From Candidatus Kapaibacterium sp. (GTDB lineage: Bacteria > Bacteroidota > Ignavibacteria > Kapaibacteriales > UBA4661), in assembly GCA_025455065.1 (NCBI GenBank), contig JALONG010000010.1, positions 62,001 through 126,000 on the forward strand: 64,000 nucleotides of DNA. Reading direction: 5' to 3'. Below the pieces are notes generated by a model, which did no database searches, was not told where the DNA came from, and saw nothing but the letters and a program-made list of their open reading frames with translations. Each line of letters begins with the position of its first letter. Position 1 is the stretch's first letter. A program made the translations under genes and the position numbers. Shown here piece after piece: positions 18,599-62,300 of this stretch.

Positions 18599-19303
18599 TT
18601 ATTCTAACGTTGCACCCAAGCGGATGATACCTGCTTTTGCTTCGTTGATTGCTTCGGAAAATTCCGGCGAAGCAGCAACGGCGCGGTACAAAGCAAGTGC
18701 TTTTTCTTTTTGACCTGCTTTTTCGTAGTGCATAGCAGCAAGAATGCGGTAATGGTCTTCATCGCCGATTTTTGCACCGATAGCGGCTGCTTCTTCGTAG
18801 AGTTTTGCTGCGGCTTCGGATTGATTACTATTTGCACGGCAAGAAGCTAATCCTGCTAAGCCGCCCATTTTTGTGATGTCGCTGCTTGCGCCGCTTGCTT
18901 GGTCGAAAAAGCGTTCTGCTTCTGCATAACGACCGAGAGAGGCTGTCGCCGTGCCTGCGTACAATGCAGCCAAACGACCGCTTTCCGCGCTGCCGTATTG
19001 ATTCGCAATCGCCGTCAAACCAACAACTTGCTCACCGCGAATCATGCCGGAAACGCCACCCAAAGCGACTTCCAACTGACCTGCGTCATAAAAGGGGCGA
19101 ATACGCGAAAGTTTGAGGGCTGCTTCTTTTTCGGTATTTTGCTTGGTATAGCGGTAAAAAAGGAAACCGCCAATAAGTACCGCCAGCAGTGCTAATCCGG
19201 CAAGGGCAAATTGCATTGTCCGTTTGCGCTGCGCTTCGGCATCGGTGAGGACTTCCGCCGTGTTTTCAAAGTCGTTTTCGAGAATTTCTTCTTTGTCGCT
19301 CAT
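18599..19303 (-). CDS. YfgM-like membrane-anchored TPR protein
   Basis: 234 residues with an acidic cytoplasmic start (MSDKEEILENDFENTAEVL), one transmembrane segment at about 28-50 (FALAGLALLAVLIGGFLFYRY) and a periplasmic region of TPR units: EVALGGVSGMI, AALYAGTATASLGRYAEAERFFDQA, ILAAMHYEKAGQKEKALALYRAV. Length and layout match the YfgM/tetratricopeptide_21 family, which in E. coli cooperates with the Sec-associated chaperone PpiD. It begins 41 bases after tRNA-Arg on the same strand without an intervening terminator, so the two may be one transcript. It ends at the bidirectional terminator at 18535. Confidence 0.78.
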   Translation of the reverse strand: MSDKEEILENDFENTAEVLTDAEAQRKRTMQFALAGLALLAVLIGGFLFYRYTKQNTEKEAALKLSRIRPFYDAGQLEVALGGVSGMIRGEQVVGLTAIANQYGSAESGRLAALYAGTATASLGRYAEAERFFDQASGASSDITKMGGLAGLASCRANSNQSEAAAKLYEEAAAIGAKIGDEDHYRILAAMHYEKAGQKEKALALYRAVAASPEFSEAINEAKAGIIRLGATLE

Positions 19304-19344
19304 TGTTGTTGTGGAAGAAAATAAAACAGAGGTGTTTACTGTTG

Positions 19345-19417
19345 CACGCCCGAAGGGACTTGAACCCCCAACCTATGGAACCGGAATCCATTGCTCTATC
19401 CATTAAGCTACGGGCGC
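19345..19417 (-). tRNA. tRNA-Arg (anticodon CCG)
   Basis: Reverse strand reads GCGCCCGTAGCTTAATGGATAG at the 5' side. Acceptor GCGCCCG pairs CGGGCGT, the anticodon stem ATGGA/TCCAT encloses loop TTCCGGT with anticodon CCG, and the T-arm contains GGTTCAAGTCC. The discriminator is G and CCA is not encoded. The promoter is at 19534-19565, and the tandem repeat at 19426-19524 lies in the leader. Confidence 0.94.
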
Positions 19418-19425
19418 GTGAACGT

Positions 19426-19524
19426 TTTGCTACTACTTTGCTACTACTTTGCTACTACTTTGCTACTACTTTGCTACTACTTTGCTACTACTTTGCTACT
19501 ACTTTGCTACTACTTTGCTACTAC
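19426..19524. repeat. Nine exact tandem copies of an 11-bp unit
   Basis: TTTGCTACTAC repeated nine times with no mismatch, ending at 19524 and followed by TATAGCC. It begins eight bases upstream of the mature tRNA-Arg 5' end and lies between that tRNA and its predicted promoter, so on the minus strand it would be transcribed as GTAGTAGCAAA units in the pre-tRNA leader. It also lies about 50 bases upstream of the DUF2851 start on the plus strand. Exact tandem copies imply slippage-prone copy number. Confidence 0.95.
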
Positions 19525-19533
19525 TATAGCCTA

Positions 19534-19565
19534 CAAATTTACAACGTTTTTTCTAAAAAAACAAA
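19534..19565 (-). promoter_or_regulatory. Promoter of tRNA-Arg
   Basis: On the minus strand TAAATTTG (19534-19541) and TTTG (19562-19565) are separated by 20 bases, a full match to the Bacteroidota consensus. The start of transcription would fall at about 19527, just outside the tandem repeat, giving a leader near 110 bases. Confidence 0.65.
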
Positions 19566-19575
19566 CTCCGCCCTG

Positions 19576-20643
19576 ATGAAAAATACACACACTGCGTCCC
19601 ACCTTCGCTCGGCGATGAATGAACGCGAGTTACAGCGCCTCATTCGGCGTGTTTTGCGGGATGCCTCTGTGCAGTGGCAGACAAACGACGGCACGGCTAT
19701 CACGGTTTTGTCTGTTGGCGAATGGAATCACCACGACGGTCCCGATTTCCTGAATATGGCTCTACAAGCCGAAGGGAAGATTTTGATTGGTCATGGCGAG
19801 GTGCATTGGCGCTCGTCGGATTGGGAAGATCACGGACACAGCGCACAGCCGATGTATCAAGGGTTGCTGCTGCATATTGTTGTGCAGGACAATCGCCTCA
19901 AAACGCCCTTTGCACGGCATACGCTGGTGATTCCCGAAGAAATCTTGCTGCCGTACACGGGGAAATTACCCGAACTCGCTCCAACGCTGCAACCACGCGA
20001 AATAGACGATATTCTCCGCGATTGTGCCGAGCAGCGCTTTTTTCGCAAGGCGGAGTTTGCAGGAGCGCTGTTGCTGGAGTACGGCGCAGACGCAGCTTGG
20101 AAGAGGCTTGGAACAGAATTTTGTGAGAAGCGTTTGCGCACAAAACATCTGCCGCAAGGCATTAAACGTCTTGCAAGCCTTTTACATGAAACGGTTGAAG
20201 AAAAAAATACCGGAACGGTTCATCAAATCAAGGCTGCGCAGTCAATAACCGCGTTTATCGAAGAGTGCGCAGGAGCGGAATTTCCGAAGATACAAGAATC
20301 GTGGGCGCTCTTGCTTGACGAAGCGCCATTCGGTGCGGGTACGACGTTGGAATTTGTTGTGAATGTTCTTTTGCCGCTTGGCTACGCGAGGGCTTCGGGA
20401 GCGCACAAACAGGACGTTGCGCAAGGGCTGTTGCGGTGGTATCGGACGCTGAAGGCGGTCAATCGCTATGCTCGCTTGCAGCGTAAATACTCGTTTGTTC
20501 GGCAGGAATACGTTTGGCAACAGCAGGGGTTGTTGGAATACGAAGCGGAAATTGCTGCACCGAATCACCATGCCGAAAAAACGCTACACGCTTCATCTGC
20601 ACACGGTTCTGTGGACATGGTGATGACGGTGTTTGAGGCGTAA
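19576..20643 (+). CDS. DUF2851 family protein
   Basis: 355 residues from ATG at 19576. The frame is open upstream through the tandem repeat and the tRNA, but those bases cannot be coding. Recognisable family parts are GEWNHHDGPDFLNMAL near residue 50, GHGEVHWRSSDWEDHGH, and YQGLLLHIVVQDNR. DUF2851 proteins are widespread in Bacteroidota and of unknown function; this one is somewhat shorter than many. It appears cytoplasmic. The promoter was not found and the spacing to the repeat means copy number could change its 5' region. Confidence 0.82.
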   Translation: MKNTHTASHLRSAMNERELQRLIRRVLRDASVQWQTNDGTAITVLSVGEWNHHDGPDFLNMALQAEGKILIGHGEVHWRSSDWEDHGHSAQPMYQGLLLHIVVQDNRLKTPFARHTLVIPEEILLPYTGKLPELAPTLQPREIDDILRDCAEQRFFRKAEFAGALLLEYGADAAWKRLGTEFCEKRLRTKHLPQGIKRLASLLHETVEEKNTGTVHQIKAAQSITAFIEECAGAEFPKIQESWALLLDEAPFGAGTTLEFVVNVLLPLGYARASGAHKQDVAQGLLRWYRTLKAVNRYARLQRKYSFVRQEYVWQQQGLLEYEAEIAAPNHHAEKTLHASSAHGSVDMVMTVFEA

Positions 20644-20812: not shown

Positions 20813-22540
20813 ATGGCACTCAAAGCCTTCGTTGCTTCCACAAGCAAACTGCTCTCGAAATTTGTACAAGATGTCTGCACTTCAGAAGACATCAGCGTTA
20901 CACAAATGGGAAAAGAAGACACACTGTTTGCCGACTTGCAAGCATCCACGCCGGATTTGCTCTTTCTCCACGCTTCGATTATTGAAGATTTTGACGATAA
21001 CATTATTGCCCGTGTGAAAGCAGACGACAATCTCAGCCGTGCCTACATCGTCGTTTTCGCTTCGCGCCCCGAAGGTGCAGAGTTTGCTTACAAAATCGGT
21101 GCCGATGCGTTTTTGCCGATTCCCTTTAAGAACGAGCAGTTTGAGCAGATTTTGCGCCTTATTCTGAATTTGCCGAAGCATATTTTGGTGGTGAGCAAAA
21201 CCGAAGCACTGCCCAATGCTGTGCGTGAAGCAGGTGCAATGTATGATTTTAACGTGCTGTGGGCGCACTCTGCCGAAGAAGCAATTACGCTTGCGGGAGA
21301 GAAATTCCCCGATTTAATTTTGAGTGAATATGCGCTGCCGCAGCGTAACGGCGCGAATTTGAGCAAACTTGTGAAAAATTCGCACTTGCTGGGGCATATT
21401 CCGGTGGTGATTATGATGGAATCCAACGACCAAGAACTCGTGGAAGAGTGCTTTGAAGCGGGTTCTAACGATGTTTTTCTCTTTCCTTTTGACCGCCAAA
21501 AGCATATTCACACTATCAGCAATATCGTCAAACCACCGCGCAAAGGGCGTAAATACTCGGCATTGGTAGTGGATGACAGCGTTACCGTCCGGCACGTTAT
21601 CTCGAAAATGTTCAAACAAATGGGCTTTACCGTGCTGACGGCTGCCGACGGGCAGGAGGGCATGAAACTTGCCGTGCAGCACCGTCCCGACATTATCACG
21701 AGTGACTACGATATGCCCGTTATGGACGGGTGGGATTTTTGCGCCCGTTTGCGCGAAAGCGAGTTTACACAGACGATTCCGGTCGTGATGGTTTCTTCAC
21801 GCGACACGATAACCGACAAACGCAAAGCACAAACGCTAGGTATTGCGGCATACCTGACGAAGCCCTTCAAAACGGAAGATTTGGAGAAAATCGTCAAAGC
21901 GCTGGTTGTGCAGACACAGCGCCGTAAAAAAGAAGAAATTTTGGAAAAATACACCGCCGGAGATGCGGTCAAAAAAATCGGCGAAGGTGCGCCCGGAGGT
22001 ATTGAAGAGCGCTCCGTTACGATATTCTCCTGCAATATCTGTGATTTTAGCAAAAAATTTGATTGGCTGGGAACGGCACGGGCGATTGAGCTTTTGAACG
22101 AGTATTTCCGCGTTGTAACGGGCATGATTACTGAGCGCAAAGGCGTTGTGGACAGCATCATGGGCGATGAAATTCTCGCACGGTTCGACACGGGCGACGC
22201 AGGCGGTGATGCGCTCAACGCGATAGATACGGCAGTTGCGCTTTTGGAGTATCTGGATTCTTACAATTCACGGGAAAATGACGAATTGGAAGTGCGCATC
22301 GGTATTCACTCCGACCTTGTGCTGGTGGGCAATTTCGGCAGTGCCGAACACCGCTTAGTCTATTCGATGCTGGGCGACGGCGTGAACATTGCCAAATTGC
22401 TTCAACGCTCGACAGCGCCCAATTCTTGCTTGTTTTCGGCAGACACCTACAACCACGTGGGGGAGAGTGTTGGCGAGTTACAGTCGTATTCCGTGCCGCG
22501 TAAAAGTGGTGAGCGGGATGTGATTGCGTATAAATTGTGA
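20813..22540 (+). CDS. Triple-receiver protein with C-terminal class III cyclase-like domain
   Basis: 575 residues, cytoplasmic. Three receiver-like domains follow each other: 1-120 (no clear phosphoacceptor), 123-240 (Glu172 where the phosphoacceptor Asp should be, SEYALP) and 248-365, which is canonical with Asp254/Asp255, phosphoacceptor Asp298 (SDYDMP) and Lys350 (TKPF). The last 180 residues fold like an adenylate/guanylate cyclase: VTIFSCNICDF, SIMGDEILARF, SMLGDGVNIAKLLQRS. The first metal-binding Asp is Asn408, the second is kept (Asp452), Asn525 is kept, but the arginine expected four residues after it is Leu529. Catalytic activity is therefore doubtful. No sensor kinase is adjacent. 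Confidence 0.85.
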   Translation: MALKAFVASTSKLLSKFVQDVCTSEDISVTQMGKEDTLFADLQASTPDLLFLHASIIEDFDDNIIARVKADDNLSRAYIVVFASRPEGAEFAYKIGADAFLPIPFKNEQFEQILRLILNLPKHILVVSKTEALPNAVREAGAMYDFNVLWAHSAEEAITLAGEKFPDLILSEYALPQRNGANLSKLVKNSHLLGHIPVVIMMESNDQELVEECFEAGSNDVFLFPFDRQKHIHTISNIVKPPRKGRKYSALVVDDSVTVRHVISKMFKQMGFTVLTAADGQEGMKLAVQHRPDIITSDYDMPVMDGWDFCARLRESEFTQTIPVVMVSSRDTITDKRKAQTLGIAAYLTKPFKTEDLEKIVKALVVQTQRRKKEEILEKYTAGDAVKKIGEGAPGGIEERSVTIFSCNICDFSKKFDWLGTARAIELLNEYFRVVTGMITERKGVVDSIMGDEILARFDTGDAGGDALNAIDTAVALLEYLDSYNSRENDELEVRIGIHSDLVLVGNFGSAEHRLVYSMLGDGVNIAKLLQRSTAPNSCLFSADTYNHVGESVGELQSYSVPRKSGERDVIAYKL

Positions 22541-45179: not shown

Positions 45180-45471
45180 TGTGAAACAGTGGAGATTTAC
45201 TGCGAAACAGTGGAGCATACCACCAACACTGCATCCACGATATTGTGCCTTATTGTCCCCATTGTGCAAAGGTTTTCCTTGTCTTTCTGGTTTTTCCGTA
45301 ATAAGTTTGCAAGCCATTCGGAACATATTTCGGAGCAAAATATTATGATGCTTTTCCGCAGCAATCAAGCATCCAAGCCGAATGACCAATGACTAATGAC
45401 CAATGACTAATGACCAATGACTAATGACCAATGGCTAACGAATAACGAATGACCAAACAACCACGCACACC
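45180..45471. repeat. Intergenic region with AATGACC-type tandem repeat
   Basis: Four near-perfect copies of a 14-bp unit AATGACCAATGACT occupy 45381-45436, itself two 7-bp halves (AATGACC, AATGACT), then a decayed tail AACGAATAACGAATGACC ends near the acpS start. Two copies of GAAACAGTGGAG lie at about 45183 and 45204. No gene is seen in the gap. Confidence 0.7.
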
Positions 45472-59300: not shown

Positions 59301-62300
59301 TGGTGGGATTTGCTTTTGCAGCAATTACAAGTTTTACGCCCGCCGTTGCAGCAAACGGTACAGTTGTAACAATTAACGGGGCAGGATTCACGGGGGCAAC
59401 GGCGGTGCGCTTTGGTACAAATATGTTTGGGACAGCAACCCCCGCAGCAATGTTCAACATTGTGAATGACAACCAAATTACGGCGACCGTCGCCGCAGGT
59501 GCGAGTGGACGAGTGTGGGTGCAGGCTGCGGCTGGTACATTAAGTACAGCGGCTGGGAGTTTTACCTTTGTTAATCCTCCGACTATCACAGGCATTACAC
59601 CGACGTTGCAAGGTAACGGCGGCGTGGTAACAATCACGGGAACAAATTTTATTGCCGCGCCCGCTCCGACAGTAACCTTTGGCGGTGTTCCCGCAGCGAG
59701 TTTTATGGTGGTCAGTGCAACGCAAATTAACGCTACCGTTGCCGCGGGAGCGACAGGAATGGTCTCGGTAACAACAATCGCAGGAACGGCAAATTTTGCC
59801 GGATTTACCTTTGCGCCTACACCAACGATTACAAGTTTTGCACCGATGAGCGCACCTGTCGGTGGCACGATAACCATTAACGGCACTGGCTTTTTTGCTG
59901 CACCTTTGCCGACGGTGAATATTGGCGGTGTTGCGGCAACAGGCGTTACCTTTGTCAGTGGGACACAAATCACGGCAAATGTGGCTGCAGGCAGCGCTTC
60001 GGGAATGGTGCAAGTAACCACGCCCGGCGGCACGGCAAATTCTCCCGGATTCCAACTTGCGCCGACGGTCACAAGTTTTGCGCCGACAAGCGCCGGAGCA
60101 GGGACAACCGTAACAATCAACGGTTCGGGCTTTACGGGTGCAACAGGCGTGAGTTTTGGCGGCGTTGCCGCGGCAAGTTTTATGGTTGTTTCTGCGACGC
60201 AGATTACCGCCGTTGTTGCTCCGGGAAGTCTGAGCGGGAATGTGCAGGTAACAACCCCTGTGGCTTCGGCGAGTCTTGCCGGATTTACGTTTATTCCGCC
60301 ACCGACAATCACGATGTTTACCCCGACAAGCGCTATGGGCGGTGCGACGGTGACGATTACGGGGACAAATTTCACGGGTGCAACGGCGGTGAGTTTTGGC
60401 GGTATTGCTGCGGCAAGTTATATGGTTGTTTCCGCAACACAGATTGATGCTGTTGTCTCTGCCGGAGGTTCGACCGGTACTGTGCAGGTAACAACGCCCG
60501 GTGGTACTGTAACGAGTGGTGCAGGATTTACGTTTATTCCGCAGCCACCGACAATCACGATGTTTACCCCGACAAGCGCCGGAGGCGGAGCAACGGTAAC
60601 GATTACCGGGACACATTTTGCAGGTGTTTCGATTGTATCGTTTGGTGGTGTGAATGCCGCGAGTTTCACCGTCATCTCTCCAACACAGATAAATGCCGTT
60701 GTCGCAGCCGGAGGCGCTTCGGGAAGTGTGCGCGTAACGGCACTTGGTGGTACGATTATGACTCCCGGCTTTACCTTTATCCCGCCGCCAACTATCACAA
60801 GTTTTTCCCCGATGAACGCAGGAACGGGAACGGTAGTAACGATTAACGGTACAGGTTTCACGGGCGCAACGGCGGTGAGTTTTGGCGGTGCGGCGGCTGC
60901 AGGGTTTACGGTTGTTTCGGCGACGCAAATCACGGCAACCGTTGGAGCAGGTGCAAGCGGAAATATCCAAGTAACCACGCCCGGCGGCACGGGAACGCAA
61001 GCCGGATTTACCTATCTTCCCGGACCGGGTATTATCGGCTTTGCTCCGATGAGTGCTGCGCAAGGCACAACGGTAGTCATTACGGGAACGAATTTCACGG
61101 GCGTTTCGGCGGTCAGTTTTGGCGGTACTCCGGCAATGAGTTACATGGTAATTTCACCGACACAAATCAATGCCGTTGTGGGAGCAGGAGCTTCGGGTGA
61201 TGTTTCGGTAACAACAAGCGGCGGTACAGTGCTTTCGCCCGGATTTACGTTTATTGCTCCGCCAAATATCACATTTTTCACGCCTTCCGGCGCAAATGGT
61301 GCAACGATTGTTATTAACGGCTCAGGGTTTACGGGCGCTACGGCGGTAACGTTTGGCGGTACAAATGCGGCAAGTTTTACTGTGCTGACGGATAATTTGA
61401 TGACCGCTGTTGTTGGTGCCGGTTCGAGTGGAAATGTCGTTGTAACAGGTCCGGGCGGCGTAGGAACGCGACCAGGCTTTACCTTTAACGCAGGACCGAT
61501 GATAACGGGTTTTACGCCAACCTCAGCCGGACCCGGAATGACGGTGGTCATTAACGGAGCAGGATTTTTAGGTGCGACGGGTGCAACGGCGGTGCAGTTT
61601 GGCGGTGTGAATGCGGCAAGTTACACCGTCGTTTCTGCGACGCAGATTGTGGCTATTGTCGGCGCTGGTGGTGCAAGCGGTGTTGTGCGCGTCCAAACGC
61701 CGGGAGGAGTGAACACTCTTGCCGGATTTACCTTTGTACCGGCACCGACGATAACAGGCTTTGCACCTGTTACTGCCGCACCTTCCACGACTGTTACCAT
61801 TACCGGAACGAATTTTACGGGTGCAACAAGCGTTACTATCGGCGGTTTTGCTCCGGCGAGTTTTACTGTTGTTTCGGCAACGCAAATTAACGCTGTTATT
61901 GGCACAGGTGCAACAGGAAGTATTACCGTCTTTACGCCGGGCGGTTCTGCCTCGCAGGCAGGTTTCATGTTTGTTCCGCCGCCGCCTGCTATCACGGGCT
62001 TTACGCCGACAGCGAGTGCTTCCGGCGGGACGGTTACGATTACGGGAGTCAATTTCTTATCGCCATCGGCAATTACCTTTGGCGGAACGCCTGTGACCAG
62101 CTTTTCGCTTATTTCGCCAACACAAATAAATGCCGTCATTGGCGCAGGTGCAAGCGGGAATGTGTCAGTAACAACGCCGGGCGGTGTTGCCGTCCGAAGC
62201 GGTTTCACGTACTATCCGCAGCCGACCATTACGAGTTTTGCGCCCACAAGCGCTCCGACGGGAACGGTTGTTACCATTAACGGAACAAACTTCACCGGAG

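Follow-up and report, generated by a model that had tools for sequence, protein, structure and literature searches.

The window, a stretch of 64,000 nucleotides, shows nine exact copies of an 11-bp unit between a promoter of Bacteroidota type and the tRNA-Arg(CCG) gene. We take this array, with a probability of roughly 60%, to be a minisatellite born by replication slippage in a leader that tolerates change, which would be transcribed and then removed by RNase P. The location is unusual for a perfect minisatellite, given that it makes up nearly the whole predicted leader of a tRNA whose anticodon is unique among the 38 tRNAs found in the genome.

The array and its predicted transcription unit

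The array covers positions 19426-19524 and is, as the original prediction had described it, an exact letter-for-letter succession of nine 11-bp units, which read TTTGCTACTAC on the plus strand and GTAGTAGCAAA in the RNA transcribed from the minus strand. TRF reported 9.1 copies with 100% match and a score of 200, compared with a top score of 70 across 20 Markov-1 random sequences of 64 kb. A 788-kb sample of the genome contains 26 non-overlapping short arrays (period 5-30, at least three copies and at least 80% match), of which the one at 19426-19524 is the best. Twelve of the 26 are intergenic, and the array is missing from these because the simple ORF caller placed it within a long open frame. 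Although all plus-strand frames are stop-free across the array, a coding role was rejected because the DUF2851 frames of relatives begin later; the open frames have 378-396 amino acids in four relatives versus 464 in this genome. A two-unit pattern, allowing up to three mismatches, found no second locus elsewhere in the genome, so a dispersed repeat family was discarded as the source of the unit. A plasmid search with a 301-bp query returned only tRNA-sized matches, and viral contigs searched with three units gave no match.

The promoter that had been proposed at 19534-19565 was found with both of its boxes and its spacer. Read on the minus strand from 19565 to 19534, it has the form TTTG-N20-TAnnTTTG, with the -33 box TTTG at 19562-19565 and, 20 nt from it, the -7 box TAAATTTG at 19534-19541, which is kept in six relatives of the same genus. 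It is a promoter of the Bacteroidota type and not of the E. coli sigma-70 type; a sigma-70 scan, directed at the wrong promoter type for this locus, gave no match. Both boxes and their spacing match the Bacteroidota primary sigma promoter as outlined in PMC7366714 and PMC9723704, with nothing notable that differs, here in a Kapabacteriales-type genome. According to the promoter description in PMC9723704, the TAnnTTTG box of Flavobacterium psychrophilum is located at -12 to -5. From the position of the -7 box, transcription of the locus would start near 19529, and the predicted pre-tRNA 5' leader (19418-19529, minus strand) has about 112 nt, 99 of which, or nine tenths, are repeat. The array lies 9 bp behind the -7 box and 8 bp from the tRNA, so it fills this predicted leader from about 5 nt past the predicted start. 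No other TAnnTTTG was found within 260 bp upstream of tRNA-Arg(CCG); therefore, no consensus start lies between the array and the tRNA, as the original prediction presupposed. Furthermore, the leader of about 110 bases made almost entirely of repeat, which it had put forward, is well supported as a prediction, since the promoter, the tRNA and the downstream gene are kept in this order in the six relatives. Alignment of 22 tRNA promoters also shows a common motif past the -7 box, roughly TAGTCTNTTT, at the transcript start region, in place of which the array locus and its relatives carry TAGGCTATA.

The tRNA-Arg(CCG) gene (19344-19417, minus strand) is followed, about 40 bp behind, by a gene encoding a TPR-type protein (18599-19303, minus strand; Pfam TPR hits below the cut-off), which is probably included in the same transcript. 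On the other side, the divergent DUF2851 gene (19576-20643, plus strand; PF11013, E 1.6e-22) was given its start at 19576 because relatives start there. No NCBIfam family was found for either the DUF2851 or the TPR protein. The genome has an RNase P RNA (261 bits). At 20813-22540 the window encodes a protein that has matches to the response-regulator receiver as well as an adenylate/guanylate cyclase domain.

Leader length in this genome and its relatives

The genome is a draft of 5.6 Mb, and it was compared with MAGs labelled Ignavibacteria, taking one genome per species. DUF2851 is present in 96 of 99 genomes; tRNA-Arg(CCG) adjoins it in five of the 30 loci examined, those of this genome and of four others of its genus. 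All five loci show a near-identical promoter followed by GTAGGCTATA, a differing leader, the tRNA and a TPR-type gene. G005 and G006 carry this promoter-tRNA-TPR unit beside another gene, with DUF2851 on another contig; the leader is therefore to be assigned to the tRNA-TPR unit, with DUF2851 as no more than a transient neighbour. A search with two units and up to one mismatch detected the array in only one of the 123 genomes of the order; the unit is absent from all relatives.

Measured from the -7 box, the tRNA-Arg(CCG) leader has 116 nt in this genome, 42 nt in G007, 44 nt in G001, 33 nt in both G002 and G004, 135 nt in G005, 202 nt in G006 and 49 nt in G009, which belongs to another genus; the tRNA was not recovered from G003 and G008 in this comparison. 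This is the widest range (33-202 nt, 6.1-fold) among the nine tRNAs with four or more measurable leaders in the genus, and the second widest is that of tRNA-Cys (39-112 nt). The 112-nt tRNA-Cys leader (L062) is that of this genome and is without repeat, and those of the relatives have 39 to 68 nt. The 202-nt leader of G006 holds a 25-bp palindrome with 117 and 123 matches on the two strands of G006 at up to three mismatches, counts in which one place may appear on both strands. This palindrome, GTAGTCCACCTTTGAGGTGGACTAC, occurs at more than 100 places in G006 (e.g., L252-L255) and at none in G005 or in this genome. Palindrome in one species and array in the other indicate that the tRNA-Arg(CCG) leader was enlarged differently in different species. 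The suggestion of a leader that changes length by slippage holds as far as length is concerned, which does vary between species; however, it varies through unrelated sequence and not through unit copy number.

A promoter was recognisable within 130 nt of 22 of the 38 tRNAs of this genome, with leaders of 14 to 116 nt (median 42) of which the array leader is the longest. Among the relatives, 69 of 160 tRNA upstream regions showed a promoter (median leader 43 nt, 90th percentile 68 nt); this survey spanned 200 bp upstream, and for that reason the 202-nt leader of G006 is missing from it. These 160 regions, together with three of this genome, contained no array above a TRF score of 62 besides that at 19426-19524. 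According to PMC10731613, in the part that deals with leader length, E. coli leaders of single or first tRNAs have 2 to 52 nt. Against this range, the leader of about 112 nt predicted here asks how little RNase P cares about the RNA that precedes the tRNA.

Folding of the tRNA leaders

Leader folding was compared with that of shuffled sequences in 93 leaders with a recognisable promoter, 21 from this genome (loci L039-L068 and L102-L107) and 72 from relatives (loci L142-L251). The tRNA kinds Gly-TCC, Leu-CAG and Leu-TAG had been removed, with promoters that were uncertain or probably serve the preceding tRNA, which left 94 leaders; one of these was too short. The median z was -1.49 in this genome and -1.43 in relatives, and 38 and 36% of the leaders, respectively, had p under 0.05, compared with 7% of 94 stretches taken from upstream of the promoters and 14% of 42 that follow promoters of the same type in the genome sample. 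Leaders of orthologous tRNAs do not count as independent; grouped by tRNA kind and with the array leader left out, the mean z was below 0 in 21 of 23 kinds (Wilcoxon p 6e-7). For the 34 leaders with p under 0.05, the first paired base lies at a median distance of 1 nt from the assumed start and the last at a median distance of 2.5 nt from the tRNA, and the sequences of these hairpins differ between orthologues. Several leaders of this genome, those of Ser-CGA, Ser-GGA, His and Thr-CGT, fold no better than their shuffles.

The array leader stands out against the folding tendency of tRNA leaders in this genus: it is essentially unfolded, with 198 of 200 shuffles folding at least as well, and its z of +2.39 is the highest, that is, the least folded, of the 93. 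Six of the seven tRNA-Arg(CCG) leaders of relatives fold only weakly better than their shuffles (z -0.5 to -1.7), and therefore support for the idea that the array took the place of a hairpin comes chiefly from the trend across the genus.

Pairing between leader and tRNA is also low. Across the 93 leaders, with 20 shuffles each, 1.18 pairs are expected in native sequences versus 3.68 in shuffles (p 7e-16, kinship ignored). For the array leader the values are 1.03 and 1.81, and one of its 20 shuffles is as low. With the array in front, acceptor-stem formation reaches 0.966, versus 0.961 for shuffles of the array, so base order adds little there and the low content of C and U does most. Across the genus, tRNA leaders tend to form internal pairs in preference to pairs with the tRNA, which is testable in other Bacteroidota, and the hairpins are perhaps a more interesting by-product than the array itself. 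No matching description of leader hairpins, or of repeats in or near tRNA leaders, was found in the open-licence literature at the level of abstracts.

Changes in leader sequence have few-fold effects on bacterial RNase P, and pairing in or with the leader slows the enzyme more, according to the account of leader effects in PMC10731613; an unstructured repeat would therefore be a harmless leader. With the array attached, the tRNA is still predicted to fold as a cloverleaf, and the proposed effect on RNase P processing or pre-tRNA stability did not find support. This result bears equally on the possibility that the array acts through its length, with slippage-driven copy number tuning promoter escape, pre-tRNA processing or stability, and thus CGG decoding or the TPR gene. 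The onset of the array close behind the predicted start, its filling of the leader and the exceptional length variability of the tRNA-Arg(CCG) leader among the nine compared agree with such a function; however, the unchanged tRNA fold, the lack of the array in the other 122 genomes of the order and the retention of the same promoter and tRNA by relatives whose leaders measure 33 and 202 nt make it unlikely.

The genus-wide data would also fit a broader proposal, which we regard as improbable. The tRNA leaders of the genus would carry a structural demand, fulfilled by a hairpin from the first bases or by no structure at all, that blocks pairing with the tRNA, and the tRNA-Arg(CCG)-TPR leader would be a hot spot that swaps in palindromes or a slippage-prone unstructured repeat, whose length adjusts the output rate of the CGG-decoding tRNA or the TPR mRNA.

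In the minisatellite reading, which we prefer, replication slippage would have created a lineage-specific array in the transcribed stretch that separates the start site from tRNA-Arg(CCG), hosted by a conserved tRNA-TPR transcription unit. The array would be transcribed as a long, nearly structureless leader, then cut off by RNase P, and would be nearly neutral. It may persist because the length of this leader is free to vary and because the C- and U-poor repeat pairs neither with itself nor with the tRNA; this absence of structure may meet the demand that a hairpin seems to satisfy in the other leaders of the genus. Against the minisatellite reading stands the fact that the strongest short array of the sample begins almost at the predicted start, as chance placement would rarely bring about.

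Other explanations and known systems

Short-read assemblers can collapse or expand arrays of this kind, and the genome is divided into 131 contigs, so the array might be real and nine not its true or only copy number. At 99 bp, however, the array is shorter than common reads and its flanks are unique, which makes an assembly product rather doubtful.

Control at the level of DNA, by a protein bound in a row to the 11-bp repeats or by start sites that these would offer to DUF2851, appears very unlikely. The period of 11 corresponds to one helical turn, and the unit junctions read TACTTTGC, fitting eight times the TAnnTTGY box SM5 of F. psychrophilum as it is given in PMC9723704. However, this fit was made post hoc and the motif occurs 69 times in the window versus 70.6 in shuffles; moreover, the array is absent in relatives. 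No TAnnTTTG box points to DUF2851 in this intergenic region or in four relatives, and DUF2851 is not adjacent to the tRNA unit in G005 and G006, which also renders the proposed modulation of the divergent gene unlikely.

The cut-off leader might also be a protein-binding RNA, such as a sponge of A-rich triplets, since the RNA unit GUAGUAGCAAA holds unfolded runs of A-R-N triplets, the motif of the Hfq distal face; this is the least probable of the explanations, with a leader that is not conserved among relatives, and a sponge for Hfq was rejected on the lack of any Hfq match in the genome.

At the plasmid R1 parC site, 11-bp direct repeats follow one another next to a promoter, and the parM and parR genes lie alongside. 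The array shares with it the row of 11-bp repeats beside a promoter; however, it stands in a chromosomal tRNA context, and the nine neighbouring proteins scanned belong to Pfam families other than ParM and ParR, which does not suggest a centromere of this type. The TAACTGA heptamer arrays of Beggiatoaceae, Cyanobacteria and some Bacteroidetes, for which a possible post-transcriptional role has been proposed, are likewise short intergenic direct repeats ahead of genes; as summarised in PMC4679880, they have a 7-bp unit and precede many genes, mostly before start codons, whereas the 11-bp unit described here precedes a tRNA and its two-unit pattern has a single locus. Bacterial minisatellite or VNTR loci, such as mycobacterial MIRU in the outline of PMC3635867, are the closest to the array in their perfect, head-to-tail and lineage-private units, and the short units of high identity found by TRF agree with this class; the array differs from them in sitting in a tRNA leader, and it is known here from a single genome, with the other species, each represented by one genome, lacking it.

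Further repeats were noted. TRF units hinted at a dispersed family with GCCCTTATCCCT, for which the strict two-copy pattern is found in one place only. Another short array, AATGACCAATGACT, is located at 45381-45438 of the window (4.1 copies, 97%) and has similar units in other stretches of the genome. Finally, repeats of long period (162 and 246 bp, about 70% alike) at 56868-57269 and 60270-60753 probably correspond to repeated protein domains.
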